In this document: piece by piece, positions 33,938 through 49,561 of the stretch | Layout: each line of letters starts with the position of its first letter | Numbering within the stretch: the first letter of the stretch is position 1 | Assembly (NCBI GenBank): GCA_021775475.1 | Contig: JAJFHS010000053.1 | Coordinates: 108,271 to 172,270 of the forward strand | Source: Hyphomicrobiales bacterium | Lineage (GTDB): Bacteria; Pseudomonadota; Alphaproteobacteria; Rhizobiales; JAJFHR01 | Reading direction: 5' to 3' | Length of the DNA stretch: 64,000 nt | Position numbers and translations under genes: made by a program | The notes under the pieces: model-generated | What the model saw: the letters and a program-made list of their open reading frames with translations, nothing else | The model's database searches: none | Told to the model about the DNA's origin: nothing

Positions 33938-34765
33938 TTATTTTACCTTGTCTTTCCAATCCCGGTTTTTGAACCACTTGTCGTGGGTCTTTTGCAACCA
34001 GCCATCCAACTCACGATACAGGATCCAATTGTTGAAGAAATTAAGCCCGTCCGGGTCGCCTTTGCGCACGGCAAATGCTGAAGCAGACGGATCCCACGGT
34101 CCTGTTCCAAAGGGATTAAAAAGCACCTCGGGATTATCAATCACATAGTAGGTGGGCTTGGGCTCTGAGGTTAGAAAGGCGTGTGCGTTGCCATTCAAAA
34201 CATCCTGAAGTGCCTGTGCATCATCATCAAACTGGCGAAGTTTGGCTTTTGGAAACAATCGCGCGACGGTCTCTCCCGGTGCGGTTGCGCGTTTAATCGT
34301 CAGCGTTACGTTAGGGTTATTCCAGTCTTCAAGTGTCTTGAGGCCATCTTTTTCAGCAAGTTTTTTGTTGGCGGCCATACCGACTTTCAAAAAAGCATAG
34401 GGCCGTGAGAAATTGACCGTCAGGTTGCGCTTGGGCTTAATCACCATGCCGGTAATGATGACGTCAAACTTTTTAGCCAGAAGAGCTGGTATGATGCCAT
34501 CCCAGGCCGTTGGCACAAAGACCACCTCAACCCCCATATCCTTGGCAAGTTGTCGGCTCACGTCAATTTCGAAACCGATCAGGCTGCCATCTTTCGCGCG
34601 CATCGACCATGGGACAAATGTGGACAGGCCAACCACCAGTTTTCCGCGCTTGAGAATATCATCGACAACACTTTGGGCCGCTGCCTGATTTGCAAAACTC
34701 AGCAGCGCTCCCAACATCAAGGTTGTGGCCACCAGCACACTCATAATTTTTTGTTTGAATAACAT
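33938..34765 (-). CDS. Polar amino acid ABC transporter substrate-binding protein
   Basis: 275 residues, SBP_bac_3 family. Signal peptide (SVLVATTLMLGALLSFANQAAAQ, cleavage after AAA-Q region near 30). Mature opening ILKRGKLVVGLSTFVPWSMRAKDGSLIGFEIDV and ligand loop DVIITGMVIKPKRNLTVNFSRPY are typical. It lacks the cysteine pair of the binding protein at 15605. First gene of the importer, divergent from RidA; the shared region holds a palindrome. The neighbouring catabolic genes suggest an unusual amino acid or cyclic amine as ligand. Confidence 0.92.
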   Translation of the reverse strand: MLFKQKIMSVLVATTLMLGALLSFANQAAAQSVVDDILKRGKLVVGLSTFVPWSMRAKDGSLIGFEIDVSRQLAKDMGVEVVFVPTAWDGIIPALLAKKFDVIITGMVIKPKRNLTVNFSRPYAFLKVGMAANKKLAEKDGLKTLEDWNNPNVTLTIKRATAPGETVARLFPKAKLRQFDDDAQALQDVLNGNAHAFLTSEPKPTYYVIDNPEVLFNPFGTGPWDPSASAFAVRKGDPDGLNFFNNWILYRELDGWLQKTHDKWFKNRDWKDKVK

Positions 34766-34875
34766 TTCTATTTCTCCCCTTTTTCTCTATCGTTATCTTA
34801 ATTTTTGGAAAAATTGATTACCTTCCCCGCACCCAACATTACAACCTTATAGCAATTGCAAAACAGAGGACAGTG

Positions 34876-34890
34876 CGAATATAATATTCG
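34876..34890. promoter_or_regulatory. Palindrome in the divergent importer/RidA promoter
   Basis: CGAATAT-A-ATATTCG, perfect 7-bp arms about a single base, 43 bp before the RidA start and 111 bp before the binding-protein start. The XRE-cupin regulator encoded at 36418 is the nearest candidate binder. Confidence 0.5.
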
Positions 34891-34932
34891 TACCAAAAGG
34901 CATTTTGAAAATGATTATGGAAGGAAGAACCT

Positions 34933-35325
34933 ATGCGCAAACTGGTATCCAGTAACCGGCCATGGGAAGATCAGGTTGGCTATTCGCGTGCGATACGCGT
35001 GGGCCCTGTAATTGAAATTGGACTGACCTCACCTTCAGCCCCTGATGGGACAATCCTGCATGCGGGCGATGTTTACAAACAGACAGTCGAGTGCCTGAAA
35101 ATTGTTGCAGATGCTCTTGAAGAGGCCGGAGCATCTTTCGATGATGTCATTAAAACCAACATAATGATGCTCGATACAACAAAGTGGGCGGATGCCGGTC
35201 GCGCCCATGCCGAATTTCTTGGCCATGTTCGACCGGCCCTGTCTTTCATTGGTGTAAGCGGGTTCTTTGACCCGCTGATCGAGCTTGAAGTTGAGGTCAC
35301 TGCCTATATTGAAAACGACAATTAA
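34933..35325 (+). CDS. RidA/YjgF-family protein
   Basis: 130 residues. Family features: SSNRPWEDQVGYSRAIRVGPVIEIG at the start, GDVYKQTVECLKIVADALEEAGASFDDVIKTNIMMLD in the middle, and RPALSFIGVSGFFDPLIELEVEVTAYIE at the end. The usual catalytic arginine of RidA imine deaminases (in the phrase PxRxxV near residue 105) is replaced here by a hydrophobic stretch (ALSFIGV), so this is probably not a classical 2-aminoacrylate deaminase but one of the Rid subfamilies found in catabolic clusters. RBS GGAAGGAAG is strong. It is divergent from the importer and convergent with the M29/NicX-like gene. Confidence 0.85.
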   Translation: MRKLVSSNRPWEDQVGYSRAIRVGPVIEIGLTSPSAPDGTILHAGDVYKQTVECLKIVADALEEAGASFDDVIKTNIMMLDTTKWADAGRAHAEFLGHVRPALSFIGVSGFFDPLIELEVEVTAYIENDN

Positions 35326-35335
35326 CCAGCCCGGG

Positions 35336-36421
35336 TTAACCGGTTATTCCAATTTCATCTGATGGGTTCTTATATAAGTCCTTCAGTTCCGGCCACTTTT
35401 CAAGACACTTTGCGGTTTGGGCAAAAGCCTCTGGATGAAGGCGTCCCATGTCCCATAAATCAACTCCATCTATGGAGATCGTGGGATCCAGCACCATCCA
35501 GCAAATTTCACCCGGCGCGTAATTTCCGCAGGTGTGAAAATGGAGAAAATGGGGATTGGTAAATACCGTATTGGACCACCGGTCCGGGTCCAGGCTGGCT
35601 GCAACTTTATAGGCACAGCCGGGATGAATACCCGCATGCCACGAGTGCACAATATCGCGTTCGATACCAAATTCTTCGGCGATCTTGTCATAATGCTGCT
35701 GCACGAGACTGACCGTTTTACGATCTCCTTCAAAATTCAAAATACGCCCCGCTTCAACCTTTGCAAAGACTACCTGTTCCAGCTTAAGACAAGCTGGCTC
35801 ATATGATTTTGAACCTGTGGGTGTCAGATATCCGGCAAGGGCAATTCGTCCTGAAAACGTGTTGGCATTAATGGGTGCCGGCACCCCAAGTGGAAAGCGC
35901 AAAACAGATACATCAACCGGGTTTTCAACTTCGCCTTTGGAAATCTGGCCGGCATAGTCTGTGCCAAGGGGACAGGTGATCTCAATATGTTGCGCCGTCA
36001 ACAGGGCAGTATTGACAGCTTCTTTCATGGCATAAAGTGCCTGGTGTGAGGCTCTGCCATAGGATGACGCCAGCATTTCAGCGTTACGCGCATAACACAT
36101 CACACTCATTTTTCCGGGTGGTAATTTGGAAAATCTATCCTGATCGCCAATGCGGGAAAAAAATATTGTATAATCATGTTGGGCGATTGCTTGTGTCAGG
36201 CCTGAACTCAAATGATTTTCCGGTCTGCCCACTTCAAGCTGGCTTACCACAGCCCCCATGTCTATTGCTTCATTTGCCACCGCACTGGATACTTCAGCAT
36301 CATACCAGCCAAGATCGGGCGTTTCCGAGATTATCAAAACGGTATCACCACATTTGATACCTGCGCAATTTACAAGCAGGTTTCGGGCACCTTTTGAAAG
36401 CTTGCCAGAAAATTCCATCAC
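35336..36421 (-). CDS. M29 aminopeptidase/NicX-like metalloenzyme
   Basis: 361 residues. The layout recalls the M29 (AmpS/AmpT) fold and the related non-haem iron enzyme 2,5-dihydroxypyridine dioxygenase NicX, which has about 350 residues. Readable parts are an N-terminal alpha/beta domain (CGDTVLIISETPDLGWYDAEV), IEITCPLGTDYAG near 170, NFEGDR near 255, and a His-rich C-terminal part HSWHAGIHPGC and PHFLHFHTCGNY near 290-325 followed by DPTISIDGVDLWDMGRLHP. The histidines could be metal ligands. Start overlaps the XRE-cupin stop by 4 bp. Ring cleavage or peptide hydrolysis cannot be separated by eye; the oxygenase-like and RidA neighbours make ring cleavage attractive. Confidence 0.6.
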   Translation of the reverse strand: MMEFSGKLSKGARNLLVNCAGIKCGDTVLIISETPDLGWYDAEVSSAVANEAIDMGAVVSQLEVGRPENHLSSGLTQAIAQHDYTIFFSRIGDQDRFSKLPPGKMSVMCYARNAEMLASSYGRASHQALYAMKEAVNTALLTAQHIEITCPLGTDYAGQISKGEVENPVDVSVLRFPLGVPAPINANTFSGRIALAGYLTPTGSKSYEPACLKLEQVVFAKVEAGRILNFEGDRKTVSLVQQHYDKIAEEFGIERDIVHSWHAGIHPGCAYKVAASLDPDRWSNTVFTNPHFLHFHTCGNYAPGEICWMVLDPTISIDGVDLWDMGRLHPEAFAQTAKCLEKWPELKDLYKNPSDEIGITG

Positions 36422-37014
36422 CGGGGCTCCGCTTGTACATTAATAAAAGTGAATGTTTCAGAAATCACTTCTTTAAACCCGTGATTGAGTTCAGCATCCA
36501 GACTTAGACTGTCATTTGCCTTGAGCGTAATTTCTCGTTGCCCATACCCGTATATCGCCTCACCTTGAACCACGTAGATAAACACCACCCCATGTCCGAC
36601 ATAGACGGGCGGGCGCCCGGTCTGGCGCGTTAAAGTCACTATGTGGGCTTCAAACTGCAAATCGCGACGCGCGTGCATGGCAAGATTGATAAAATCATGG
36701 GCATGATTGTCGACAACTCGAGTGGACTTCAATCCCTTGCCATCTATTACATGGGTAAAATCCGTCTGGCCTGAGGCAGTTTCACGAAACAAACTGACCA
36801 AAGGCACGTCAAGTGCCAGACTGAGTGCATTAAGGGTGGAGATTGAAGGGGAAACCTGGCCATTTTCAATTCGACTGACCATTGCCGCCGAGACGGCAGA
36901 AACTTCCGCCAGCTGTCTGGCTGTTAACCCTGAGGCCTCACGTAAATCACGCAATGCAGTTCCGATTGCCAGATCGATTGCCCCGCTTTGGGGACTAAGG
37001 TTTTTATCACCCAC
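36418..37014 (-). CDS. XRE-family regulator with C-terminal cupin domain
   Basis: 198 residues from the GTG at 37014, which follows the preceding stop by 4 bp; the track ATG at 37113 would overlap the neighbour by 95 bp. Neither start has a clear ribosome-binding site. HTH at about 15-70: LRDLREASGLTARQLAEVSAVSAAMVSRIENGQVSPSISTLNALSLAL. The cupin part (about 110-190) contains HGVVFIYVVQGEAIYGYG and LNHGFKEV. Regulators of this build control small catabolic or polyamine-type operons through ligand binding in the cupin barrel. It is embedded in the operon AhpD-like / oxygenase / XRE-cupin / M29-like and likely regulates it and the importer. Confidence 0.85.
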   Translation of the reverse strand: MGDKNLSPQSGAIDLAIGTALRDLREASGLTARQLAEVSAVSAAMVSRIENGQVSPSISTLNALSLALDVPLVSLFRETASGQTDFTHVIDGKGLKSTRVVDNHAHDFINLAMHARRDLQFEAHIVTLTRQTGRPPVYVGHGVVFIYVVQGEAIYGYGQREITLKANDSLSLDAELNHGFKEVISETFTFINVQAEPR

Positions 37015-37018
37015 TGAT

Positions 37019-37984
37019 TTAACTTTTACGATAGGAAAACGCTTTGTTAAATCGCCAGACAAGATAGTCACCACAGGTAATCGGCTCTTCTTTAGCCGCG
37101 TAATCTGCTCCATATATCTCGTTAGCGCTGATCAGCGTATCAGGGTCGGGATCATACGCCAGGACTAATGAAAGCCGCTCGCGCCCGGAGCTGTTTACCA
37201 CACGGTGCGGGGTTGATTTATAAGCACCATCTGTCCAGCGGGCCAGAAGATCGCCAACATTGACCACCAATGTTCCTTCAATTGGCGGAGCGTGAACCCA
37301 CTCGCCATCAAGGGTCTGCACCTGCAAGCCTCCCACAGAATCCTGGCACAATACGGTAAGGACACCAAAATCCGTATGCGGCCCGACACCAAACTGCTTT
37401 TCACCCAGATCTTCACGCTGTTGGGGATAATAGACAAATGAAGCGCGGCTGAGGGGTTTGGAACTGGTTTGTAAAAAATATTTCTCATCAAGGCCAAGAC
37501 CCAGGGCAAAGCCACGCATCAGATGATGGGCCACAACATGTGCATGATCAAAGTATTCCATCGCGTGTTGTTGCAACTCGGGAAGAAAAACCGGCCACTG
37601 ATTTTGACCCCGCAATGGATGATCATCAGGGGTATTGCCAGCCCTATCCTGAAATCCCCAGATAAAGCTCTCCTTGAGATCCGGCGCAACATCATCCTGC
37701 ATTTTTGCCAGCCCTTGTCCCAACCACCCCCGATGACGGGCTGAAATTTTCACTGTTGCTTTATCGTCATTAGATCTGCGAAAAAAATCCAGTGCATTGG
37801 CGCGCGCAGCTTCTATGGTTTTTTCAGGAATACCGTGACCTTTAATGTAAATAAATCCCAGGTTCTGGCTGGTTGAATGTAACAACTGAGCTACTGATCG
37901 CGGATCACTGCCATCAATCAGGCGACTAATATCCACTACAGGAATAATTTCCGCATCAAGTTGCTTTGCCTGCGCATAGACCAT
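37019..37984 (-). CDS. Isopenicillin-N-synthase-like 2-oxoglutarate/Fe(II) dioxygenase
   Basis: 321 residues from the ATG at 37984 (MVYAQAKQ), chosen because GAAGGA precedes it at 7 bases; the track start at 38017 has none. N-terminal DIOX_N part IPVVDISRLIDG and FIYIKGHGIPE near 45-55. The catalytic jelly roll has the metal motif HTDFGVLTVL near residue 200 and the distal HRVVNSSGRERLSL near 255 providing the third histidine and the RxS motif for 2-oxoglutarate. All three metal ligands and RxS are intact. It would hydroxylate or otherwise oxidise the pathway substrate. It stands between the AhpD-like and XRE-cupin genes. Confidence 0.92.
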   Translation of the reverse strand: MVYAQAKQLDAEIIPVVDISRLIDGSDPRSVAQLLHSTSQNLGFIYIKGHGIPEKTIEAARANALDFFRRSNDDKATVKISARHRGWLGQGLAKMQDDVAPDLKESFIWGFQDRAGNTPDDHPLRGQNQWPVFLPELQQHAMEYFDHAHVVAHHLMRGFALGLGLDEKYFLQTSSKPLSRASFVYYPQQREDLGEKQFGVGPHTDFGVLTVLCQDSVGGLQVQTLDGEWVHAPPIEGTLVVNVGDLLARWTDGAYKSTPHRVVNSSGRERLSLVLAYDPDPDTLISANEIYGADYAAKEEPITCGDYLVWRFNKAFSYRKS

Positions 37985-38001
37985 TAGTTTTTCCTTCGCC
38001 A

Positions 38002-38052
38002 AACAATTGTTGCTCATAATACAATAAATTGCATGGCACGCAATAGTTTATT
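38002..38052. promoter_or_regulatory. Palindromic region before the dioxygenase gene
   Basis: Contains a perfect palindrome AACAATTGTT (38002-38011) and an imperfect inverted repeat AATAAATTGC (38023-38032) / GCAATAGTTTATT (38040-38052) that runs into the stop of the AhpD-like gene. An internal promoter/operator is possible. Low certainty. Confidence 0.3.
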
Positions 38053-38626
38053 CTTCAGTGTAATACCCGACAATATCCCCTTGTGTTGAAACGCCAAGCC
38101 CGTTCAGACACCGGTTTACGTAGTTAAAGTAACCGATAATCTGGTTGGCTTCGAGAATTTGACCATCATCAAATCCTGTATCTTTCAGGGCATCAACATC
38201 TGCTTTGATCACGTCTGCGGGGAAAAGCGTCAATTTTTCAGCATACTCAAGCAGCGCTAATTCCGCGCCACAAAAAGTGGGTTCCAATGTGCGTGTGTTC
38301 AGCGCCTTTTCAATTTCATCGGCACGCTTTTCATCGTTAATCAGATGACGGGCATTGGCCCAATGGTTCGCCAGCGAATAGCTGCACCCATTCAAAATGG
38401 AGACATAAGAGCTGATTGTTTCCTGTAGCCATGCCGGCAAGGTGTTGGCATCATCATGCAGGGCGGCGCGGTAAAGAACCACATGGCCGCGTAACGTGCT
38501 CGGCCGGAGCGAATGAACGCGCATGACATTATCCACCGTTCCATGTGGTGTACGGGCAAGCTTCAGAGCATCAAGTAATTCGTCATCAGCCTCATCATCT
38601 GAAATCATCTTTATCCAAGCAGTCAT
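38048..38626 (-). CDS. AhpD-like (carboxymuconolactone decarboxylase fold) peroxidase-related protein
   Basis: 192 residues, length typical of the peroxidase-related AhpD-like family. The active-site region near residue 78 reads SILNGCSYSLANHW, where the family normally has N-x-C-x-Y-C-x-x-x-H. The first cysteine and the histidine are present but the second cysteine is serine. Without the second thiol the usual disulfide peroxidase cycle is not possible, so a different chemistry (for example decarboxylase-like or proton-transfer) should be considered. It is the first gene of the operon with the dioxygenase, XRE-cupin and M29-like genes. Confidence 0.8.
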   Translation of the reverse strand: MTAWIKMISDDEADDELLDALKLARTPHGTVDNVMRVHSLRPSTLRGHVVLYRAALHDDANTLPAWLQETISSYVSILNGCSYSLANHWANARHLINDEKRADEIEKALNTRTLEPTFCGAELALLEYAEKLTLFPADVIKADVDALKDTGFDDGQILEANQIIGYFNYVNRCLNGLGVSTQGDIVGYYTEE

Positions 38627-38842
38627 ATATAATCTCCCGAAATTCTTTGATTTAGAATAAGAGGCAATTTAATTTACTGATTGATTTTGGCAAATCAAAT
38701 TCACAAATGGTTTTTTGATCAATGGACTTACCTTGAAAAAGTGAAGGGACTTCTGATGCTAATATCATCTATGGACGCCCGTCGAGCGGGATTGTCACAT
38801 TAAAAAAGAACGGTGCCAGATTGAATCTGAGTTTTCTATAAA

Positions 38843-39265
38843 CTATTTGCAGGTCGGGTCGTGTCCCTCAATGATTTCTTCAACCACAAGGTCTATAAGT
38901 GGCTGGTCGTCCAACCTACTTCCACGGCGGAAATTTCCGCGAAGACGGGCACCGCAACGTTGAAGCCTGCCGCTGACTTTGTTGTATTCCGTGATAGAGT
39001 CCTCGACGCCAAAGTCAATTCGAACCACACCAAAACGCTTCCCTTCTGCATCCATGAATATTCTTCCCGGACAGGGTGCGCGATAACACAAACGAAAATC
39101 AACAAGCGATAGCACTCGGCTCTTGTCACCAAGATCGTCACCCCATTTTATGCGAGCTTCAATGGGTGACTTCTTCTGCGCCTGGACAGGCTCCACTGTG
39201 GGCGCCAACAACGCTGTTACTACCATTGTGGATACCAGCAGTTTCACGGTGCTTTTTAGTAACAT
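38843..39265 (-). CDS. Small exported protein with four cysteines, IalB-like
   Basis: 140 residues from ATG 39265 (MLLKSTVKLLV), preceded by AGGGA; the track start at 39325 lies upstream of a clear signal peptide. Signal sequence ends near VQAQ. The mature part has LCYRAPCPGRIFMD, then FGVEDS, and single cysteines near residue 100 (QRCGARLRG) and at the penultimate position. The pattern of a small secreted domain with two disulfides recalls invasion-associated locus B proteins, but similarity is weak. It is the last gene of a four-gene operon of exported proteins. Confidence 0.65.
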   Translation of the reverse strand: MLLKSTVKLLVSTMVVTALLAPTVEPVQAQKKSPIEARIKWGDDLGDKSRVLSLVDFRLCYRAPCPGRIFMDAEGKRFGVVRIDFGVEDSITEYNKVSGRLQRCGARLRGNFRRGSRLDDQPLIDLVVEEIIEGHDPTCK

Positions 39266-39321
39266 TGGATTTTCCCTATGAAATGCAACTGATCTACGCC
39301 TTAACTCCAAGCTTACCAGGG

Positions 39322-40689
39322 TCACTTCACCTTGAATATCTCAACGGCATCGACAAAAACCAACGCCTCTCCATCGGCTTTATTGTACTTTCCAAGCAGC
39401 ATGGTAAATTTGCCCGGACTGCGCAATGAGGTCAGCGGTTTGGTGTTCTGCTTGATCTCCGTTGTTTTTCCATCCAGAACACCCGAAATCTCAATAGCTC
39501 CTGTGTATTCTCTGCCCCTCTTGGACAAAATCATTTTAGTCTTTGAATTCGCTACAAATTCTATCCAGTTTTTATACTCTTGAGGGTTGAAATTACCACA
39601 AATATCAGCGCCCTTGCCGCCGACAAGGGTGTTAAATACCGCCTCCTTGCCGCGCGACCTTTTAACAAGTTGGATTTTTGCACCGTTGCAGGTTGAAGAG
39701 CCGGTAAATGTATAAAAAGTGAGGCCGAGATAATTTTGTTCGTCCTTACGCAAGGCAATCGAAAACTGATCTTTGCCGGTTTTCAGCTCTGCGATCAGGT
39801 TGACTTCAATGTCCCAATCTCCTTTGGGCAGTTTTTCGCCAAGAGAGACAAAGTTGTCTGAATCAGCATTGTAAAGTGTGGCAAGCTGGCTGGACAGCAT
39901 TAGCAGAGACCCTTCTTCGACCACATATGATTCCGGGTTTGGATTGGTCACTGACCAGCTTTCGCCAAGAGCCTCTCCGTCAAAATTATCCAGAAAAACG
40001 CTTTCGCGCTGTGGTGCAACGGGTTGGGGTTTCGGTGCTGGTGGCGGTTCTGGTTTGTCATCGACAGCAACCTTGATAACCTCTTTTATGGCGTCGGAAA
40101 AACCCTGTGTGCTGTTGGCTGGAAAATATTTTCCACCACCATAATCAGCAATGCATTGCAACTCTGCGCGATCTTTTTTGGAGATGTCAAAGCCGACCAC
40201 GTGGACTTTGACATTAATATTTTGATTAGCCAGCCAAGAAGCGGCTGAACAGACATTGCCACCACAAGTCTCGATGCCATCAGAGATCAACACAACATAA
40301 TTTGAATCTCCCGGAGCGGTTCCGGCAAAAGCCTGTTTGGTCTGTGTCAGAGCATAGGAAATCGGCGTCTTGCCAAGCGGTGTCAACCGGGAAAGAGCTG
40401 CTGAAGTGCTGGAGCCAGCACCTATAGGCGAAATCAGCTCAACATCTTCGCAGGATCCTTTTTGGCGATGGCCATATGCCATAACACCCGCCTTTGCGCC
40501 TTTGGGAAGATCACCAATAAGACGTGTAAGAACATTTTTGGCTGTGCTCATTTTGGCAACACCATCCACCTGCCCCCACATGGAGCCTGATGAATCAAGC
40601 ACAAAAAGTATATTGGTTTTCGCCTGTGCACTGACAGCCGTCGATATCATGAGCGCTGCAGCTAAAATAGTTGTTATAGATTTACTCAT
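39322..40689 (-). CDS. Exported von Willebrand factor A-domain protein
   Basis: 455 residues. Signal peptide ending SAQA near 24. vWA domain at about 25-205 with a complete MIDAS: DSSGSMWG near 32, T in GKTPISYAL near 103, and D in LISDGIETCGG near 136. A proline-rich linker (PEPPPAPKPQPVAPQ) near 220 leads to a C-terminal beta-rich domain (DNFDGEALGESWSV to the end) that looks like a concanavalin/LamG-like or glycan-binding sandwich. Two cysteines flank the SDG loop and may form a disulfide. Metal-dependent binding of a partner outside the inner membrane is expected. It belongs to the exported-protein operon, 135 bp after the coiled-coil protein gene. Confidence 0.88.
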   Translation of the reverse strand: MSKSITTILAAALMISTAVSAQAKTNILFVLDSSGSMWGQVDGVAKMSTAKNVLTRLIGDLPKGAKAGVMAYGHRQKGSCEDVELISPIGAGSSTSAALSRLTPLGKTPISYALTQTKQAFAGTAPGDSNYVVLISDGIETCGGNVCSAASWLANQNINVKVHVVGFDISKKDRAELQCIADYGGGKYFPANSTQGFSDAIKEVIKVAVDDKPEPPPAPKPQPVAPQRESVFLDNFDGEALGESWSVTNPNPESYVVEEGSLLMLSSQLATLYNADSDNFVSLGEKLPKGDWDIEVNLIAELKTGKDQFSIALRKDEQNYLGLTFYTFTGSSTCNGAKIQLVKRSRGKEAVFNTLVGGKGADICGNFNPQEYKNWIEFVANSKTKMILSKRGREYTGAIEISGVLDGKTTEIKQNTKPLTSLRSPGKFTMLLGKYNKADGEALVFVDAVEIFKVK

Positions 40690-40824
40690 TTTTCTTTTCC
40701 TCCCTGGTGCAAAAACTTGTCATCATCGGTTCAGAATTTTCATCTGCGCCTACAACTGAGAATGTTACGGTAACTGTATCAACCAGATTGTCGATACCAG
40801 TGATCTTTTCACAGCCTAAACAAA

Positions 40825-42978
40825 CTATCGTCGTCGCGATTTTACTGTAACGGTAATCTTTAAATTGCTTTCATTTGAGGTTGCCAGCAAATCCACTCCG
40901 GCCCGCGGCAAGACAAACTCCAATGGTCTGGCCCGCGACAGGTCGACATCACCAAGTTTCATGTTTATACGCGCACGTCGCAGGTAGCGTCGGCTGGACG
41001 GTGCCGTCTTCAGTTTGAATCTGTAGCCTTGGGCAGCCACAAACGGCTCATTCCTGTCAATATAAAACTCAATGCTTGGGATAAGTGGTAATCTTCTTGT
41101 GGTCTGCTCAATTTCTCGGTCCAAATCCACAACACGCTTTTGCAGTTGTATGTAAATCATGGTGACTGGTCTTAAAAATTGCCCGATGTCATTGACCTGA
41201 ATTATGGCTGCTGCCAAATCTCTCATTGGCTCGTCCGTGAAGTATCTGTCTGCAAATTCTTTAGAAGCCTCTATTAAAAAGGATTGTAACATCTCAAGTA
41301 ACACTTCAGTCCTTAGATTTGTTATCCCTTTGCGAGAACCTTGTCCCAATCCCAAACTTAGGCTTGCCTTTTGTAAATTCTTCAACATAAAATTAGCGGT
41401 CAAAGGGCCTACTTTGCGTTCAAAAACGGCGCTCGCAGCGATCTTTTCCAGTAATTTTATTGTACCACGCCGGGTCAGTCCTTTAGTTGTTTCTGCACTA
41501 CCAGTTTTCCCAGTTTCTACAGCAGCAGCCTTGATGTTGAATTCCCTGAACAAGTTTTCCATTGAATTACGATAGGTATAATCACCAAAAAACACTTCCC
41601 CCATAGCGGCTGCAAACACTCCGCCAACACCCCCGGTAGCCCTGGCCCGAAATATGGTTAAGAATTTCGATCCAAGATTGATCATCATTTGAGCATTCAG
41701 TGACCGGCCTGTTGCAGCGGTGGATTTATCCAGCGCTTGAAGAAATTCCGCTTGCGCTTTCATTGCACTTTCAAGCGCTGATTCTCGTTCAGAGCGAATT
41801 GTTTTATAGGTTTGAAGCAATTTCCGATACCGCTCCAGCAGGTCTGACCGGACCTTGACAGGTTGATCCCACTTGCCGGAAAAATCATCACTGGCCAACG
41901 TATCAAACCGCGAGGACAACAAATTGTTCAATCGAATAATTCGTTCCAGTTTCCGGGCCCGTTCCTCCAGAAATTGTGATAGTTGCTGGTCAAGCCGGGT
42001 ATATAATTCGGACCGGCGTTTTATTTTTCGATCTTCAGCCGCGCGTCGTCGCGCACTGTCTTTAAGGACAAGCTCAAAATCGGGATCCACGCGATCCGAC
42101 AGGCGTACGATTTTTAATTTCGCATCGTTGATTTCCCGCGCCAGACGCTTTTTGGTTCGCCGGGAGGCGCCGGGTTTGGTTTTTTGTCTTTCCCAGCTTG
42201 TTATTTTTGTTTTGATCTTACTAATCTGCCGCAAACCTTCGGCATCCGGGCCAGTTACCGAGATGCCGGTTTTTCGTTCGATTGTTTTTGCTTCTTTCGC
42301 AACGCGCCTGCGTTCATTGTCTTCGAATTGAAGCCGCTCGTTGCTGGCCTTATCCAGTTTTTCTTTAGCCAGGTTTAGTTCTTGAATAAGGATTCTCGGC
42401 GTATTGCGATTATAATCATTTGTAATGGTATTAAGTTCTGATTTTACTTTGCTAAAAATCAGGTCCACGCCGGAAATTGAAAACCTCACTGGCCGAATGA
42501 CAATCGCAGTGGTTTTATAGAAGCGATTACTTTCTATAATTCTGTTACTGTTTTGCGCCAATACAATTTGTGTGCGGCCCGGCCAAATCCGTAATCCGGG
42601 ACCATTCGGGTCATTAAAAGGTTCGATTTGCGCATGTTTGCGATAACCGGCATCGATGATGCCCTGCCGGTCCTGCGCCGACAACTCGCGATCCAGATTT
42701 TGAGCCTCATCACGCCATACTTTCGGCAGATCATCAGGGACCGGCTTATATTGCACGACAAATTTTCCCTGAACGAAACTGCCTTTATATGTGCGGTCAA
42801 TACTTATTCGTGTGAACTTGAAATCAGAACCCTCATGAGCGATCGTAAATCTCTGGTTATTGCCGGATGCCCAAACACCGCTGTAGTCAATTTCTTGCGC
42901 ACTGACGGGGGATATAAGAAACAGACAGAAGAAAAGGGCGGCCGACGCGCTGGATTGAAATTTTTTTGTAAGAACCAT
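40825..42978 (-). CDS. Exported coiled-coil protein of unknown function
   Basis: 717 residues; no family recognised. Signal peptide (ASAALFFCLFLISPVSAQ). Residues about 28-140 form a beta-rich domain beginning IDYSGVWASGNNQRFTIAHEG, lipocalin-like in flavour. Residues about 190-400 are highly charged with strong heptad character (for example ELNLAKEKLDKASNERLQFEDNERRR and RRAAEDRKIKRRSELYTRLDQQLSQFLEERARKLERI), a long coiled coil. A glycine/alanine-rich hydrophobic patch (ARATGGVGGVFAAAMGEVFFGDY) near 455 may be a membrane-interacting segment. A beta-rich C-terminus (YRFKLKTAPSSRRYLRRARINMKLGDVDLSRARPLEFVLPRAG) follows. It starts 4 bp after the upstream Cys-repeat gene. Confidence 0.75.
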   Translation of the reverse strand: MVLTKKFQSSASAALFFCLFLISPVSAQEIDYSGVWASGNNQRFTIAHEGSDFKFTRISIDRTYKGSFVQGKFVVQYKPVPDDLPKVWRDEAQNLDRELSAQDRQGIIDAGYRKHAQIEPFNDPNGPGLRIWPGRTQIVLAQNSNRIIESNRFYKTTAIVIRPVRFSISGVDLIFSKVKSELNTITNDYNRNTPRILIQELNLAKEKLDKASNERLQFEDNERRRVAKEAKTIERKTGISVTGPDAEGLRQISKIKTKITSWERQKTKPGASRRTKKRLAREINDAKLKIVRLSDRVDPDFELVLKDSARRRAAEDRKIKRRSELYTRLDQQLSQFLEERARKLERIIRLNNLLSSRFDTLASDDFSGKWDQPVKVRSDLLERYRKLLQTYKTIRSERESALESAMKAQAEFLQALDKSTAATGRSLNAQMMINLGSKFLTIFRARATGGVGGVFAAAMGEVFFGDYTYRNSMENLFREFNIKAAAVETGKTGSAETTKGLTRRGTIKLLEKIAASAVFERKVGPLTANFMLKNLQKASLSLGLGQGSRKGITNLRTEVLLEMLQSFLIEASKEFADRYFTDEPMRDLAAAIIQVNDIGQFLRPVTMIYIQLQKRVVDLDREIEQTTRRLPLIPSIEFYIDRNEPFVAAQGYRFKLKTAPSSRRYLRRARINMKLGDVDLSRARPLEFVLPRAGVDLLATSNESNLKITVTVKSRRR

Positions 42979-42982
42979 GACG

Positions 42983-44245
42983 TCACCAGTCCAATGTTAT
43001 TTCAAACTTTTTCTGGCCAAGTTTTTTGGCACATGAATACAATCTATCCACATCACCCGGTCTGTACTCATTAAGCACCAGAGTGCCATTTGGGCATAGT
43101 TCAGCGACTTCTATATCAAATGTCTGCGGGGTGGACTGTATGGGCGGGACCACTTCGCCCGGGGCATAAACAGGCTGAGGGCGATCCCAAAAATTGCACT
43201 GTCCCAAGATTTTCAGTTCTTTTAATAAGCCCGCTTTTGTTACTGTGATATTCAATTTGGCCCCATATTGAAGTCCGGCCTTCTTGTTACACCAACTGGT
43301 GAGGCTATCGCCAATGGAGGGATCCTCAACCGGTCCCCTGCAATAGTTTTTGATGAAATAAAGTTTACTACCCACCTGGTAATATGCGGCTTTCCAGTTG
43401 TCTCCATACGTTTTCTTACAACGTTCAAATTGAACCTTAATTTCAACAGGTGACGGTTGTGGGTTGTTCCGTTGGTCGGTATCTCTTTTGTTGCCGGGTG
43501 TGTTTTTTCCTGTTCCTTGCGAAGATCCGGGGTTTTGTCTTTGCGGGGTTTGAGAGGCCTGTTTTTTTTGAATGCTCCCTGCTCCTGGGGCGGCGCTGTT
43601 GGTGCATTCAAAAAACTTGCCCAACTGATTTACCTTGACGTCGCCACCAGCGCAAAGTTGATTCTTTGCAATTACTCGGTGTTCCAGCCCCAAACCACCG
43701 TTCGTCCGGCGCGAACACAATGGTGAACCATCCGTGCGCCTTTGCGAGCCGAACCAGTCCGGGCCAAACTTGTTGCGGCACCAGGTATCCAGACTTTGAG
43801 GCTGGGTGTTTACAACGGGTTTAGGAATATCCACACAACTGAATTTGAAACCCTTTGCAGGTCTGCGAACCTGCCCGGTCGGGCAGGGAGTTCTTTGCCC
43901 ACCCACCTGCTGAATTGGTGATGGCGTCGGTTGCTTGAACTTTTTGGATTTCTTAACCTTTGCCTTGGGCGTGCAGGGAATAAGAGGACAGTACTCATTT
44001 TTTGGTACAACCCGGTGTTCCAGCCCCAGCCCGCCGAATGTCTTGCGCGAACACATTGGTGCATTGTCGCTCCGGCGTCTTGTTCCAAACCATTCCGCGC
44101 CATATTTTCCCGCACACCACTTCGTAAGTTCTTGGGATTGTGCTTTACTTTCATTGATTGCAGATAGAAACAACAGGGATGTTATCACCGCTCCCAGCAG
44201 TAATAGAAACCAATTTTTATTTGACAACTGGTCCTTTAGAAACAT
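42983..44245 (-). CDS. Exported protein with duplicated cysteine domain, unknown function
   Basis: 420 residues from ATG 44245 (MFLKDQLSNKN) behind AGGG; the track start at 44302 adds 19 upstream residues. Signal peptide or anchor FLLLLGAVITSLLFLSAINESKA. Two copies of a 48-residue cysteine module follow: WCAGKYGAEWFGTRRRSDNAPMC near 40-60 with GGLGLEHRV, and WCRNKFGPDWFGSQRRTDGSPLC near 160-180 with the same GGLGLEHRV, each with a further KNxxC. A Pro/Gln/Asn-rich disordered linker separates them from a third, degenerate copy (CKKTYGDNWKAAYY) and a C-terminal domain with WCNKKAGLQYGAKL. No known family. First gene of the exported-protein operon. Confidence 0.75.
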   Translation of the reverse strand: MFLKDQLSNKNWFLLLLGAVITSLLFLSAINESKAQSQELTKWCAGKYGAEWFGTRRRSDNAPMCSRKTFGGLGLEHRVVPKNEYCPLIPCTPKAKVKKSKKFKQPTPSPIQQVGGQRTPCPTGQVRRPAKGFKFSCVDIPKPVVNTQPQSLDTWCRNKFGPDWFGSQRRTDGSPLCSRRTNGGLGLEHRVIAKNQLCAGGDVKVNQLGKFFECTNSAAPGAGSIQKKQASQTPQRQNPGSSQGTGKNTPGNKRDTDQRNNPQPSPVEIKVQFERCKKTYGDNWKAAYYQVGSKLYFIKNYCRGPVEDPSIGDSLTSWCNKKAGLQYGAKLNITVTKAGLLKELKILGQCNFWDRPQPVYAPGEVVPPIQSTPQTFDIEVAELCPNGTLVLNEYRPGDVDRLYSCAKKLGQKKFEITLDW

Positions 44246-44315
44246 GATCAGCCCTAGCAAATATTGTTTCTTATGCGTGAGCGTAGCCCGAAAATAGTTC
44301 AATGGTCAAATTTAG

Positions 44316-44873
44316 ATGAATACTAAAATGCCACTTGCCGTATATTGTGACAGTTGTGGAGCTGACTGGTCTAAAGGTCACTTTAGTACCCGGTGTGAGC
44401 AATGTGGCGGTGGGGCACTATATCGAACATGCCCACAATGCAGCGGAATATGCGGGTGCACGTGGCAACGGGCAATGTTGGATTCTCAGGATGAGCATTT
44501 AGCCCACTGGGTGGGTATCTGCAATCTTGAAAAAGACGAAAAATCACAAGAACATATTTTGACTAACATTTCTGCCCAGTGGTGGCTGGATGAATCTGCA
44601 TTGGCCGATCTATATTGGGCCTGCCTTATTTCACTGCCAGGACGGGGCGCAGTGGTTGTCGACCTCGATGGTACAGAGCACGCCTTTGCTGGATACGAAG
44701 CAGCAGTAACATGGTTGCGCGAGGATGAATATGAGCCAATACTACAATTGGTTGAACGAAATGAGATTGCTAGTGATGTATTGCCACCAGCGCAAATGAT
44801 AGCTTTGGCGCTTCACGTTTCCGGAAATTTGAATGGTGGATATAAAGGACAAAAATCAACCCATAAAATTTGA
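44316..44873 (+). CDS. Hypothetical protein with N-terminal zinc ribbons
   Basis: 185 residues, no signal peptide. Zinc-binding motifs at the start: CDSCGADW (9-16), CEQCGGG near 28, CPQCSGICGC near 39, enough for two zinc sites. The rest is acidic and alpha/beta (WWLDESALADLYWACLISLPGRGAVVVDLDG). Not a recognised family. It is divergent from the exported-protein operon with a 70-bp intergenic gap, so the two may share a control region, but no functional link is evident. Confidence 0.6.
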   Translation: MNTKMPLAVYCDSCGADWSKGHFSTRCEQCGGGALYRTCPQCSGICGCTWQRAMLDSQDEHLAHWVGICNLEKDEKSQEHILTNISAQWWLDESALADLYWACLISLPGRGAVVVDLDGTEHAFAGYEAAVTWLREDEYEPILQLVERNEIASDVLPPAQMIALALHVSGNLNGGYKGQKSTHKI

Positions 44874-45022
44874 TGTTGTTGACTTTTCCCGAGTTGAACT
44901 TCTACTGTTGAACAGACCTGCGCACCCTCTCACAGGTGCTATGTGGTCGATTAAGTTCGATTTTGATACTATATTTTGTTCCGAGAGTTTTAGTCCTGAA
45001 AATTCTGATGATCGGATGTATT

Positions 45023-45733
45023 ATGAATATCAAACATTTCACCAGCCCTGCCGCTTTATTCGGGATAGTCCTAACAACGACGCTGGCGACATTGACCGTT
45101 GCCCCCCGCGCCTCAACAAGCCCTGCAACGTGGGTCACTGACAGGATTATAGGGGTGAGCGATGGTGCCTGGATTGCCCTTCACGTCGAGAGAAATGTCA
45201 AATCAGGCTATGAGTATCGTACACGCTCAGAAGTTCGCATCATTCGCGTGACCAATAGCTGCATCCACAAACGGGTATCACTGGGTGACGTTAACAACGT
45301 TGACCGGGAAGCGACTGGAAATTGGCAGAAATCACAAATCTCCCGCGGTGACGGTTCCAACCTTGCAGTTTTATCCACCATGGCGCCAGTAGTACCAAGC
45401 GATTGGCGCGAACTCATCACAATCGAAAATGGATCAATTGCACTCTTGGAAGACAAGAAAAAAATTCCAATCATCCCATCTGGAACTGTCCTGAAGTGGG
45501 CAACCTTGCAGGGTGCTAAAATCAATTCTGTCTCCAGGATAGCAGCTGTGTTTCAATCGGCTGATACGTTGCGCGGAAATAATTGGATCTATCTGGAAAT
45601 CGAAACTGCCGAACGAGATGTGGATGTAGATTACACCCGGTTTGTGCTCCCGCTCAAAATCAACCCTCTGCCATCTGGAACCAACGGTCCCGCAGAGCTA
45701 TCAGCTATTCAACCACAGCCAGATGGGTGCTGA
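45023..45733 (+). CDS. Hypothetical exported protein
   Basis: 236 residues from ATG 45023 (MNIKHFTSPAALFG); the track start at 44936 has no ribosome-binding site and precedes the signal peptide. Hydrophobic segment LFGIVLTTTLATLTVAPRAS acts as a signal sequence. The mature part is beta-rich (TDRIIGVSDGAWIALHVERN, VLKWATLQGAKI) with two cysteines and no recognised family. It ends 156 bp before a degenerate IS6-family element. Confidence 0.55.
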   Translation: MNIKHFTSPAALFGIVLTTTLATLTVAPRASTSPATWVTDRIIGVSDGAWIALHVERNVKSGYEYRTRSEVRIIRVTNSCIHKRVSLGDVNNVDREATGNWQKSQISRGDGSNLAVLSTMAPVVPSDWRELITIENGSIALLEDKKKIPIIPSGTVLKWATLQGAKINSVSRIAAVFQSADTLRGNNWIYLEIETAERDVDVDYTRFVLPLKINPLPSGTNGPAELSAIQPQPDGC

Positions 45734-45889
45734 ATTGGCACTGTCATCTATGGACGCCCCTTGGAAAGCAAGGATTTTTTTGATCTGATACAAGGTGGAT
45801 TTGCAGTCATCTATCCGGCCTGTGTGTGCAGCATCATTTTGCTGCGGGCCCTGATGGAATCCAAAGATCGACGCCCTATCACGTTGTCG
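45734..45889. other. Short segment between exported protein and IS6 remnant
   Basis: Holds GGCACTGTCATCTATGGACGCCC at 45737-45759, of which 16 bases (TCATCTATGGACGCCC) recur exactly at 38765-38780. A possible truncated plus-strand ORF runs from 45761 into the IS6 left end, with a hydrophobic stretch GGFAVIYPACVCSIILLRAL; it could be a small membrane gene interrupted by the insertion. Evidence is thin. Confidence 0.3.
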
Positions 45890-46586
45890 GGCTTTGTCAG
45901 AGCAATAATTAAAGGACAAACTGTGCTCTATACTGGCGCAATTTCAGGCTGCAAGTTGCCGCCACTCTGCCAAAGCTACAAATCGGTTGTGCTTGAAGTT
46001 TTGTCGGCTGCAGAGATGACGTTCCAGGTTGAAATGATTATGGACTGATGCATGGAGGGCGGTGAATTTCTGTAACGACTTGGCGCTCCTGAACTTTGCC
46101 ATCGCTCGTTCTCGTCGACGAAATGGTTGATGCGAGTTTTCAGCCCGATTGCTGAGCCAGCGCCCAGTCGCTTGGCAGTATGCATTTCCAATGACTTTCA
46201 TTGCAGCGCCGTAAGAGCGAAGCCGGTCAGTTACAGTCACTTTTGGACGGCCATACCGTTTCATTAATTTACGCAAAAACTTCATCCAAATGCCAGCGCC
46301 ATTGCGGTTGGTATCGATGTGCAGCAGCGCGTTTCATCCTGATCTTGAATGCAAAGAGCGGGCCGAACCGATTCCACCAGAACCGGATAGTTTCGTAACT
46401 GATATCTATACCGCATTCATGAAGCAAATCTTCCACGTTGCGGAGCGAGAGCGGAAAGCAGACGTACATCATCACTGCAAGGCGAATAATCTCGGGCAAG
46501 GTTTTGAAATAGCGGAACGGATTTTTCATCAACAAAGCCTACGAGGTGTGCAACCAGGGCTCAAGTTATTTTCCTCTGACAGTGCC
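45890..46586 (-). mobile_element. IS6-family insertion sequence, internally deleted
   Basis: Terminal repeats are GGCTTTGTCAGAGCAA (plus, from 45890) and GGCACTGTCAGAGGAA (minus, from 46586), matching in about 13 of 16 positions and resembling the GGCACTGTTGCAAA ends of IS26-like elements. The transposase starts 51 bp inside one end and stops 54 bp from the other, as is normal for the family. Length 697 bp is about 100 bp short, matching the internal deletion. No 8-bp target duplication is seen (CGTTGTCG versus ACAACACC). Confidence 0.8.
45944..46535 (-). pseudogene. IS6-family transposase, inactivated by internal deletion
   Basis: The N-terminal part FRYFKTLPEIIRLAVMMYVCFPLSLRNVEDLLHE to WRWHLDEVF is followed, after loss of about 35 codons and a frame change, by the C-terminal part KRYGRPKVTVTDRLRSYG, NRAENSHQPFRRRERAMAKF and HNHFNLERHL. 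The three DDE residues (HLDE, TDRL, NRAENS) are all still encoded, but in two frames (46269-46535 and 45944-46285). The join at 46275-46282 lies in AAGTTTTT (minus), a sequence that both flanks plausibly shared, as expected for a short-repeat deletion. Confidence 0.85.
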
Positions 46587-46918
46587 ACAACACCTTCTAC
46601 GTTCAACGCCATCTCATTTCCCGAAAGACATTACGCAAATTTCGTGGCGAAGCGATGAGCGTGTGGCAGTCCGTAACTGCTGCCGCCTGAGTAAAATCTG
46701 CATCGTGGTTTCGTGCGCCTTTGTTTTGATAACGTGACAGCACCCTCTGATTTGTAGAGGCGATGCGCAGCGACATAAAAGATAAGAAGAAACGCGATTT
46801 TCTTGAAAATCGGCGTGAGCGATCTGAAGCTAAAGCGCCAAACCAACATTTGGAGCGGTAGCACTCAAAGCTTGAAATATCAAATAACTAATACTAAAAT
46901 GTTAGTTATTGCGATAAT
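46587..46918. other. 332-bp non-coding stretch before hipBA
   Basis: No supported gene. The minus-strand ORF 46631-46864 has no family features. Near the right side lies the HipB operator-like inverted repeat, described separately. Composition and the neighbouring IS6 remnant suggest scrambled DNA at a junction. Confidence 0.5.
46883..46910. promoter_or_regulatory. HipB operator candidate
   Basis: Perfect 9-bp inverted repeat AATAACTAA (46883-46891) and TTAGTTATT (46902-46910) around a 10-base spacer, ending 8 bp before the HipB ATG. Position and size fit autorepression by the HipB dimer, as in other hipBA loci, although the sequence differs from the E. coli TATCC-GGATA site. Confidence 0.65.
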
Positions 46919-47245
46919 ATGCAGGATATTGATATTATAACATCACTCATAACGGTTTCGAAGGCTCAAAAAATACTCGCGGAGAATGCGCGCGCGCGTA
47001 GGCTGGCTATGGGCCTGACGCAGGAAGGGCTTGCAAATCGTTCGGGCGTAAGCCTGCCGACTTTGCGCAAGTTTGAGCAAAAAGGACTGATATCGCTGGA
47101 ATCCTTCCTGAAGCTGATGATGGCACTGGACGGGCTGGCGCGCATTGTTGAGGCAAGCGCTCCGGAACAGACGGCGTTCTCTTCCATTGATGAGGTGCTC
47201 GAAGCGGATAAAAAACCAGCGCGCAAGAAAGGCTGGCGCACATGA
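46919..47245 (+). CDS. hipB: HipB-like antitoxin, XRE family
   Basis: 108 residues. HTH at about 22-75: ARARRLAMGLTQEGLANRSGVSLPTLRKFEQKGLISLESFLKLMMAL. A lysine/arginine-rich tail follows (KPARKKGWRT). It overlaps the HipA start by 4 bp (ATGA). As in hipBA pairs, it should neutralise HipA and repress the operon through the palindrome just upstream. There is no good ribosome-binding site before the ATG at 46919, so initiation may be weak or leaderless. It lies between an IS6 remnant and a solo IS6-like end. Confidence 0.9.
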   Translation: MQDIDIITSLITVSKAQKILAENARARRLAMGLTQEGLANRSGVSLPTLRKFEQKGLISLESFLKLMMALDGLARIVEASAPEQTAFSSIDEVLEADKKPARKKGWRT

Positions 47246-48474
47246 GTTTTACGCCTAACACGCAAATCAAGGTCGGGCTGGATTTTGACGCAGGTATTCT
47301 GCCTGTTGGACGCCTCGCTATACGCGAAGGCGATATCTATTTTGAATATGACGGTGATTTTCTGGATCGCGGTTTGGAGATTTCGCCCCTGCGTTTGCCG
47401 CTTAGTCCAGAACTAAAAACATTTGATCGTGCCTTGTTTGAAGGCTTGCCCGGTGTTTTCAATGACAGCCTGCCTGATGGCTGGGGGCGTTTGCTGCTGG
47501 ATCGCTCAATGCGGGCTCAAGGGATTTTGTCCGAACAATTAAGTCCGCTGGATCGGCTTGCGCATGTCGGCGCTTCAGGCATGGGTGCGCTAACCTATGA
47601 ACCGGATTACGGTGCGGAAATTCCAGGCGCTGAAATCAATCTTGATGTTCTGGCCTCTCATGTCATGGAAGTTCTGGATGGTGAGGCGGAAGATGTTTTA
47701 CAGGAACTTCTGGCCTTGAATGGTTCTTCGGCAGGTGCGCGTCCCAAAGCCGTGATCGGGGTTGATGACAAACGCCAGAACATCATTCATGGCGCGCATG
47801 CCTTGCCGGATGGCTTTTCGCCGTGGTTGGTTAAATTCCCTAACGTGCAAGACGGCGCGGATGCGGGCGCGATTGAATATGTCTATGGCCTGATGGCGGT
47901 CGAGGCAGGCGTCGCCATGACGCAGACGCATTTATTCCCCGCGCAAAAAGGGGCGGGTTATTTCGCGACTGTTCGCTTTGATCGCGAGGGGCAAAGCCGC
48001 GTTCATACGCATACGGCCTGCGGTGCACTGCATTCAGATTTTCGAACACCTTCGTTGGATTACGAAGATTTACTCGCCCTGACTGGTATGCTGACCCGTG
48101 ATGTGCGTGAGGTTGAAAAAATGTTCCGGCTCGCTGTGTTCAACGTGTTCGCCCATAACCGCGATGATCATTCGAAGAATTTTACATTCCTGATGAGCAA
48201 GCGCGGTGAATGGAAGCTCTCACCCGCCTATGACCTGACCTTTTCCTCCGGCCCGCGAGGCGAACAAAGCACCATGGTCATGGGCGAAGGTAAAACCCCA
48301 GGCATCGAACACCTGGAAAAGCTCGGACGTGAAGCCAGGATCGATGAAAAACGTGTTTCGGAAATTATCGAGCAAACACGCGCAGCACTCAGCAATTGGG
48401 AAATGCTGGCTAAAAAACACGGCGTAACCAAAGCTAATATCAAACTGATCAACCAAAAGCTCCTGAGCAGTTAA
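47242..48474 (+). CDS. hipA: HipA-like serine/threonine kinase toxin
   Basis: 410 residues. The N-terminal subdomain contains GLPGVFNDSLPDGWGRLLLDR near 70-90; the kinase core has the ATP loop NGSSAGARPKAVIG near 160, catalytic FNVFAHNRDDHSKNF near 297-310 (HxxDDHxxN) and the metal-binding SPAYDLTFS near 332. All catalytic elements are present, so the kinase should be active. Classical HipA phosphorylates glutamyl-tRNA synthetase and causes growth arrest; related kinases target other tRNA-linked enzymes, so the target here is open. HipB overlaps upstream. Confidence 0.93.
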   Translation: MSFTPNTQIKVGLDFDAGILPVGRLAIREGDIYFEYDGDFLDRGLEISPLRLPLSPELKTFDRALFEGLPGVFNDSLPDGWGRLLLDRSMRAQGILSEQLSPLDRLAHVGASGMGALTYEPDYGAEIPGAEINLDVLASHVMEVLDGEAEDVLQELLALNGSSAGARPKAVIGVDDKRQNIIHGAHALPDGFSPWLVKFPNVQDGADAGAIEYVYGLMAVEAGVAMTQTHLFPAQKGAGYFATVRFDREGQSRVHTHTACGALHSDFRTPSLDYEDLLALTGMLTRDVREVEKMFRLAVFNVFAHNRDDHSKNFTFLMSKRGEWKLSPAYDLTFSSGPRGEQSTMVMGEGKTPGIEHLEKLGREARIDEKRVSEIIEQTRAALSNWEMLAKKHGVTKANIKLINQKLLSS

Positions 48475-48546
48475 TGGTATTTATAGGCCGAATAAATCTG
48501 GTTGTTTTGAAAGCATTCTGTCCAGCACCAACAGAGGTGCAAAATC

Positions 48547-48568
48547 GGCTTTGTCAGAGCAACAATTA
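48547..48568 (+). repeat. Solo IS6-like terminal repeat
   Basis: GGCTTTGTCAGAGCAACAATTA matches the left end of the IS6 remnant (45890-45911) in 21 of 22 bases, same orientation, and diverges at once on both sides. With the remnant it brackets hipBA over 2.7 kb. It may be the residue of a second IS6 copy. Confidence 0.65.
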
Positions 48569-48586
48569 GTCGTCTGTGAAGAATTA

Positions 48587-49561
48587 TCATCGCATTGATT
48601 TTATTTGATTATCAGGCATCACCTGCAATTCTTGCAAGTGTTTATTCAGCCGCTGCTCCAATATCCGAAAACCGCGTACGATGACGTAGACGAACACAAG
48701 GTAGAAAGCGGCAACCCCGACATAGACCTCGAAAAACCGGAATGTCCGCGCCGCAATGGCCGTCGCCAAGCCGGTCAAGTCAACAATCGTGATCAAGCTG
48801 ACGAGCGATGTTGCCTGGAACAAAAAAATGAATTCATTGATATAGGCTGGCAGCGCGGTTCGCAGAAGGTAGGGCGCTTCGATGCGCACCAGCGTTCGAC
48901 GCGACGGAAGCCCGATAGCTTTTGCGGCCTCCACTTGTCCTTTCAGTAAGGTTGTGAGCGCCCCCCTTATGAGTTCATAGGTGTAAGCTGCGGTGTTAAG
49001 GCTAAGGGCTAAAACAGCGCAAAAATAGGTGTCTTGGAACCACGGCCAGAGACCAATGAAGCGTATTTCCACCGCAAATTGACCGCTGCCGTAGTAGATT
49101 AAGAACAACTGCACCAGCAAAGGTGTTCCGCGGAACACGAAACTGTAAGCTTCAGCAAAGGCGCGCGCCGCGGTGTTCGCACGCGCTGCCAACGCGAAAG
49201 CCGTTGCCATGACGAGCCCGAATACAGCCGACAAAACCGTCAAGCTGATCGTTATCCAAAGCGCATCTAGGAGGCCTGGCGCTGCTTGCGCCCAAATATC
49301 AGACCACATGAGCTTTGGCCTTTTGATTGTAACACGGCGCTGTAGCCAGTGCTGTACAAGTACTGACACCGCAGTGATCAAGAGATAGATCGCAGCTGCG
49401 GCAAGGATCATGTCGAACGGACGCCGGAACTTCAGGGTGGCGGGCAAGAAGCGGATCGTCGCGGAGGCTAACTTACTGGGCTGGATGGAGGGAGCTCCGT
49501 CGCAGCCAGAGGTCTGAAGGAAAATTTCCAATGTATCGGTTACATCTGACGTCAGACACAA
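48587..49561 (-). CDS. Polar amino acid ABC transporter permease, orphan, with unusual N-terminal extension
   Basis: The ORF is 324 codons. From Met85 (position 49309, MWSDIWAQAAPGLLDALWITISLTVL) it is a normal HisM/ArtM-type permease of 240 residues, with FRGTPLLVQLFLIYYGSGQ and the coupling loop QVEAAKAIGLPSRRTLVRIEAPY. The preceding in-frame 84 residues include another membrane helix and ending FDMILAAAAIYLLITAVSVLVQHWLQRR, which looks like the last helix of a partner permease, as if two genes were fused by a deletion. No binding protein or ATPase is adjacent; the gene starts directly after the molybdenum-hydroxylase stop. Function is therefore doubtful. Confidence 0.75.
   Translation of the reverse strand: MCLTSDVTDTLEIFLQTSGCDGAPSIQPSKLASATIRFLPATLKFRRPFDMILAAAAIYLLITAVSVLVQHWLQRRVTIKRPKLMWSDIWAQAAPGLLDALWITISLTVLSAVFGLVMATAFALAARANTAARAFAEAYSFVFRGTPLLVQLFLIYYGSGQFAVEIRFIGLWPWFQDTYFCAVLALSLNTAAYTYELIRGALTTLLKGQVEAAKAIGLPSRRTLVRIEAPYLLRTALPAYINEFIFLFQATSLVSLITIVDLTGLATAIAARTFRFFEVYVGVAAFYLVFVYVIVRGFRILEQRLNKHLQELQVMPDNQIKSMR

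Follow-up and report, generated by a model that had tools for sequence, protein, structure and literature searches.

The window analysed here is a 64,000-nucleotide stretch of contig JAJFHS010000053.1 from a Hyphomicrobiales bacterium (assembly GCA_021775475.1). An ORF check of the window identified four minus-strand genes at 38843-44245, in the order g1, g2, g3 and g4, with intergenic spacings of 4, 135 and 56 bp when internal ATGs are taken as the starts of g1 and g4. The features of the locus are as follows.

42983..44245, minus strand: g1, exported cysteine-repeat protein (420 aa from the ATG; 439 aa from an upstream TTG at 44302).
43982..44131, minus strand: g1 Cys repeat 1, pattern [WY]C....(F/Y)G......R.D..P(L/M)C......L...H......C from the repeat alignment, found in G095 and G267.
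43649..43795, minus strand: g1 Cys repeat 2, from the repeat alignment.
40825..42978, minus strand: g2, exported helical/coiled-coil protein (717 aa, ORF).
40843..41346, minus strand: C-terminal part of g2 (aa 545-712), with homology to the end of a coiled-coil protein at locus L069 (C-terminus).
39322..40689, minus strand: g3, exported vWA plus ConA-like protein (455 aa; Pfam vWA and homologue searches).
40117..40614, minus strand: g3 vWA domain, aa 26-191 (PF00092), with a complete MIDAS and invariant cysteines 80, 142, 147 and 179.
39328..39999, minus strand: g3 C-terminal domain, aa 231-454, predicted ConA-like beta-sandwich (AF2 and Foldseek).
38843..39265, minus strand: g4, small exported protein with four cysteines (140 aa from the ATG; 160 aa from an upstream GTG, extending to 39325).
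45944..46535, minus strand: fragmented IS240/IS6-type transposase beside the operon and not part of it (DDE_Tnp_IS240 match in 45944-46285).
47242-48474: HipA, inside the region missing from congeners.

For each of the four genes, the native frame gave the top score among the six frames. The N-termini of all four products (4/4) combine a hydrophobic core with a downstream cleavage-like site, as judged by a crude hydropathy rule rather than SignalP. The mature proteins contain even numbers of cysteines in g1 (16), g3 (6) and g4 (4), and mature g2 contains 0. Judged from these sequences, export and disulphide formation are well-founded predictions for the operon proteins. The ORFs and the N-terminal hydropathy thus agree with an earlier sequence-only reading, which had described four exported proteins on one strand with this spacing. 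Since scans for promoter and terminator signals around g1-g4 gave none above chance, it is the spacing and the common strand that suggest co-transcription. The same reading had left two of the four genes without a family. We found that a Pfam family is recognised in g3 alone, and the number of family-less genes rises to three of four: g1, g2 and g4 have no credible family in Pfam, NCBIfam, PADLOC or PHROGs, and g2 has no match in any of them. Nevertheless, the genes are more than chance ORFs, because homologues of g1, g3 and the g2 C-terminus exist elsewhere. We found no description of this operon type in the literature.

The genes scanned around the operon are metabolic, transport, HipA or IS genes. 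Two congeners lack the region at 33938-49500 except for IS matches and its far flank. Because of this gap, the adjoining IS240-type remnant and a slightly low operon G+C (46-51% vs 53% in reference genes), we regard the operon as an accessory locus, and the region as a whole, including HipA and the IS240 remnant, is probably an accessory island. Upstream of g1, at 44316-45733, two divergent genes encode a 185-aa protein resembling a zinc ribbon and an exported protein of 265 aa, neither with a curated family.

The gene with a recognisable family, g3, scored 45.5 bits against PF00092 (cut-off 23.8). Its MIDAS is complete (D32-x-S34-x-S36...T108...D137), and these residues together with Cys80, Cys142, Cys147 and Cys179 are invariant in 43 of 43 proteins that combine a vWA domain with a C-domain of this type, g3 included. 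A vWA protein with a complete MIDAS had been read from the sequence before, and the alignment bears this out. The AF2 model of the C-terminal domain, built from a 40-sequence alignment, reached a pLDDT of 96.3 and a pTM of 0.92. Its top PDB neighbour in Foldseek was 6ms3 (E 9.5e-10, TMq 0.63), and the solved structures nearest to it are GH43 beta-xylosidases, enzymes that bear a C-terminal ConA-like domain. These neighbours agree with the weak Pfam GH43_C2 matches seen in 5 of 12 members of the g3-type protein; a C-domain sequence of this type scored 13.1 bits against GH43_C2 (PF17851), below the Pfam cut-off of 22.7. No Pfam model reached its cut-off on the g3 C-domain, and a C-domain profile gave no match of value to PDB sequences. 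The confident predicted fold, with the C-terminal ConA-like domains of GH43 enzymes as its best matches, therefore supports at fold level the earlier suggestion that the C-domain is carbohydrate-binding-like. The domain is predicted to share the fold of the beta-xylosidase C-terminal domain but occurs without a glycoside hydrolase domain: it is attached to a vWA domain, attached to a caspase domain, or found alone. The caspase fusion is an exported Peptidase C14-like protein (E 4e-39; L048:761-2710).

Among known systems, g3 resembles exported MIDAS vWA proteins (PF00092/PF13519) in its above-cut-off domain score, complete MIDAS and signal peptide; it differs in the fused ConA-like C-domain and in having operon partners without a family. 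In MoxR-vWA/Bat operons and vWA-MoxR ternary systems, the vWA protein acts as a connector, as we propose for g3, but no MoxR AAA+ ATPase or Bat gene is found among g1-g4, and all g1-g4 products are predicted to be exported. DUF1194 proteins are exported vWA-like MIDAS proteins encoded near T11SS in Rhodobacteraceae (PMC12282271), and g3 is likewise an exported MIDAS protein of Alphaproteobacteria. However, g3 has no match to Pfam DUF1194 at E up to 1, and no DUF560 outer-membrane gene (T11SS) is present among the neighbours scanned, which cover part of the window genes. T11SS cargo carries a C-terminal eight-stranded barrel, whereas the g3 C-domain is predicted to be a sandwich.

Gram-negative bacteria also have exported MIDAS proteins that serve as adhesins, such as the gliding adhesin CglB (NF033757; PMC12282271) and Bdellovibrio Bd0875 (PMC11003981). 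They raise the alternative that the operon is a secreted adhesion or prey/host-contact module, with g3 as a surface MIDAS adhesin and g2 presenting it away from the cell. The lectin-type C-domain would suit such a role, and g3 does match the CglB model weakly; yet its 18.6 bits lie far under the model cut-off of 200, g3 has no lipobox, and the operon contains neither an outer-membrane secretion gene nor gliding or predation genes. We consider this alternative unlikely, though it is the strongest of those weighed here.

Two-part proteins like g3, hereafter the hub, were collected at 43 loci, i.e., the window and 42 others. A search with g3 in 101 related genomes yielded many vWA relatives, seven of them full-length, and further loci were added by a genome-contig profile scan, which used the full-length alignment, and by a class search; some loci come from related genomes. 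The carriers span Alpha-, Gamma- and Deltaproteobacteria. Most are Alphaproteobacteria (Roseibium, Stappia, Cognatishimia, Afifella-like and many Rhodobacteraceae), and the hub also occurs in Halochromatium and in Gamma- and Deltaproteobacterial MAGs. Neighbourhood reconstruction showed a stand-alone exported copy of the C-domain adjoining the vWA gene at 12 hub loci. SH3b, L,D-transpeptidase and MltA genes neighbour the hub at some loci, which hints at an envelope context.

At 16 or more of the 42 other hub loci, the hub adjoins a large exported protein that either belongs to no known family or contains WG repeats. Such proteins lie near the hub at L037, L040, L068, L069, L071, L072, L073, L075, L076, L080 and L155-L157, and those scanned have no Pfam family. 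A WG-repeat family accompanies the hub at five further loci. Because neighbours were picked as longest ORFs, single neighbours may be wrong, and the partner families rest on homology between loci. Specifically, one family unites L071 and L073 (968 and 963 aa) and another L075 and L076 (2913 and 2407 aa). The family at L156 and L157 (1348 and 1317 aa) has an oppositely oriented homologue at L160, and that of L155 (1185 aa) has one at L067 (1150 aa). The C-terminal C...H patterning of the last two partners (L155:5467-9024 and L067:12870-16322) is reminiscent of papain-like enzymes, with no Pfam match.

These partners are very variable, range from 600 to 2900 aa at homologous positions, and in several cases contain Gly-rich hydrophobic segments within the helical region. 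They could accordingly be pictured as toxins or effectors docked or delivered by the conserved hub at a polymorphic effector locus, with g2 as a non-toxic or pore-like member. We regard this as improbable, since the partners tested showed no Pfam toxin domain and no PADLOC match of value, no immunity-like gene was recognised, and g2 ends in a beta domain common to L069 rather than in a variable tip.

Another recurrent partner, the uncharacterised W618 family, is found in the hub gene run at L040, L064, L067, L069, L071 and L073 and nearby at L155 (7 loci). In a sample of the class it occurred in 1 of 240 genomes. At this one class-sample locus, L191, W618 is flanked by an F5/8-type-C repeat protein on one side and a coiled-coil protein of 821 aa on the other, and no vWA is detectable on the short contig. 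Where the hub loci have the ConA-like domain, L191 has another lectin-type fold, F5/8-type-C (discoidin-like).

The linkage with W618 bears on the explanation that the four genes have no joint function, and that a widespread exported vWA protein stands by chance beside unrelated exported genes in an accessory island. This would fit the absence of the region at ~34.5-49.5 kb from both congeners apart from IS matches, the adjoining IS remnant, the low G+C of the operon and the lack of relatives of g4. Against it, the linkage with W618 recurs at 7 hub loci against 1/240 genomes, and partners homologous to one another stand with the hub in both orientations (L155 and L067; L157 and L160). We therefore give this explanation little weight, somewhat less than the adhesion module and more than the effector locus.

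For g2, one significant relative was identified. With phmmer, the final ~170 residues of g2 align to the coiled-coil protein of hub locus L069 (E 4e-4, reciprocal 1.3e-4), and the alignment runs collinearly to both C-termini. In a control with shuffled g2, 1 of 200 queries reached E 6e-4 against some ORF. The match is modest, and we take it as real because it fell on one of the 119 hub-neighbour proteins within ~14,000 ORFs. In 348 genomes of the order, searches with full-length g2 revealed no relative, a g2 C-terminal profile found none in a sample of the order, and none appeared in viral contigs, plasmids or the genome-contig scan. The single-sequence AF2 model of g2 was poor (pLDDT 39.7) and largely helical, and it was not used for a fold search. 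By eye, g2, L071 and L073 have a similar 'SGxW' N-terminal start, and L055 and others a comparable motif, but hhalign and profile tests gave no support for homology. At L069, a 10-N scaffold gap (L069:13360-13370) immediately precedes the g2-related gene and truncates the upstream ORF of 174 aa; both pieces may belong to a single gene, which makes the true length of the coiled-coil protein uncertain.

Two homologues of g1 were found among 398 genomes of the order: L177 (552 aa, E 7e-22) and L055 (435 aa, E 2e-11). Neither is next to a ConA-type vWA gene. At L055, the gene after the g1 homologue starts 1 bp further on and encodes an exported helical protein of 610 aa; next comes a 173-aa protein common to L177. 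On the same contig, beyond two unrelated genes and in the opposite direction, lies a gene for an exported vWA protein whose C-terminus is of a different type. A Cys-rich protein at L070 was discarded as a g1 relative, as a profile built without L070 did not recover it. No convincing relative of g4 was found in 101 genomes.

The exact four-gene set has no second occurrence in the genomes searched. Joint conservation of the genes, which the earlier reading had named as a check, thus does not hold for the set itself (g4 is an orphan, g2 has one relative, and the g1 homologues are not beside a ConA-type vWA gene), but it does hold for the hub with a large exported partner. The latter arrangement, in which related vWA plus ConA-like proteins recur beside large exported proteins, also supports the suggestion that the vWA protein connects an assembly of the envelope; the metal dependence attached to that suggestion is our inference by analogy.

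We therefore propose, with a probability of about 0.55, that g1-g4 encode an extracytoplasmic (periplasmic or cell-surface) assembly in which g3 is a metal-dependent, glycan-engaging hub and g2 a helical spacer. The disulphide-braced MIDAS vWA domain of g3 would hold a partner protein by way of an acidic side chain coordinated to the metal, and a glycan of the envelope or the extracellular space would be the ligand of the ConA-like domain. The protein held by g3 would most likely be g2, which is pictured as a helical rod or spacer with a small beta domain at its end; g1 and g4 may be accessory parts stabilised by disulphides. Elsewhere, this hub would be paired with different large exported partners, the hub being conserved and the partner varying. 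The analysis establishes the gene order, the vWA domain with its MIDAS, the C-domain fold as a confident prediction, and the recurrence of the hub beside large exported proteins. That the proteins form a complex and what each partner does in it are proposals, and contact, metal use and sugar binding are drawn by analogy from other MIDAS proteins (PMC11003981, PMC12282271) and from ConA-like domains. Sequence comparison lends support to the assembly in that the only relative of g2 lies at a hub locus, and the g1 homologue of L055 precedes an exported helical protein with a vWA gene on the same contig. On the other hand, partner families differ between loci, and co-location could partly reflect an accessory-gene neighbourhood.

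On a broader scale, we tentatively suggest a widespread, hitherto undescribed system across Alpha-, Gamma- and Deltaproteobacteria, in which a hub with MIDAS and ConA-like domains may hold interchangeable large exported helical partners (g2-like, W618 and the 900-2900-aa families), with optional stand-alone lectin-like copies and Cys-repeat accessories. We give this generalisation somewhat less credence than the assembly at the window itself. To our knowledge, few bacterial MIDAS vWA proteins have a known partner and ligand. The hub family, with its invariant metal site, assigned lectin-type domain and recurrent family-less partners, offers a concrete test set for metal-dependent envelope assembly in Gram-negative bacteria, and the hub loci give a first context to several large proteins without a Pfam family.
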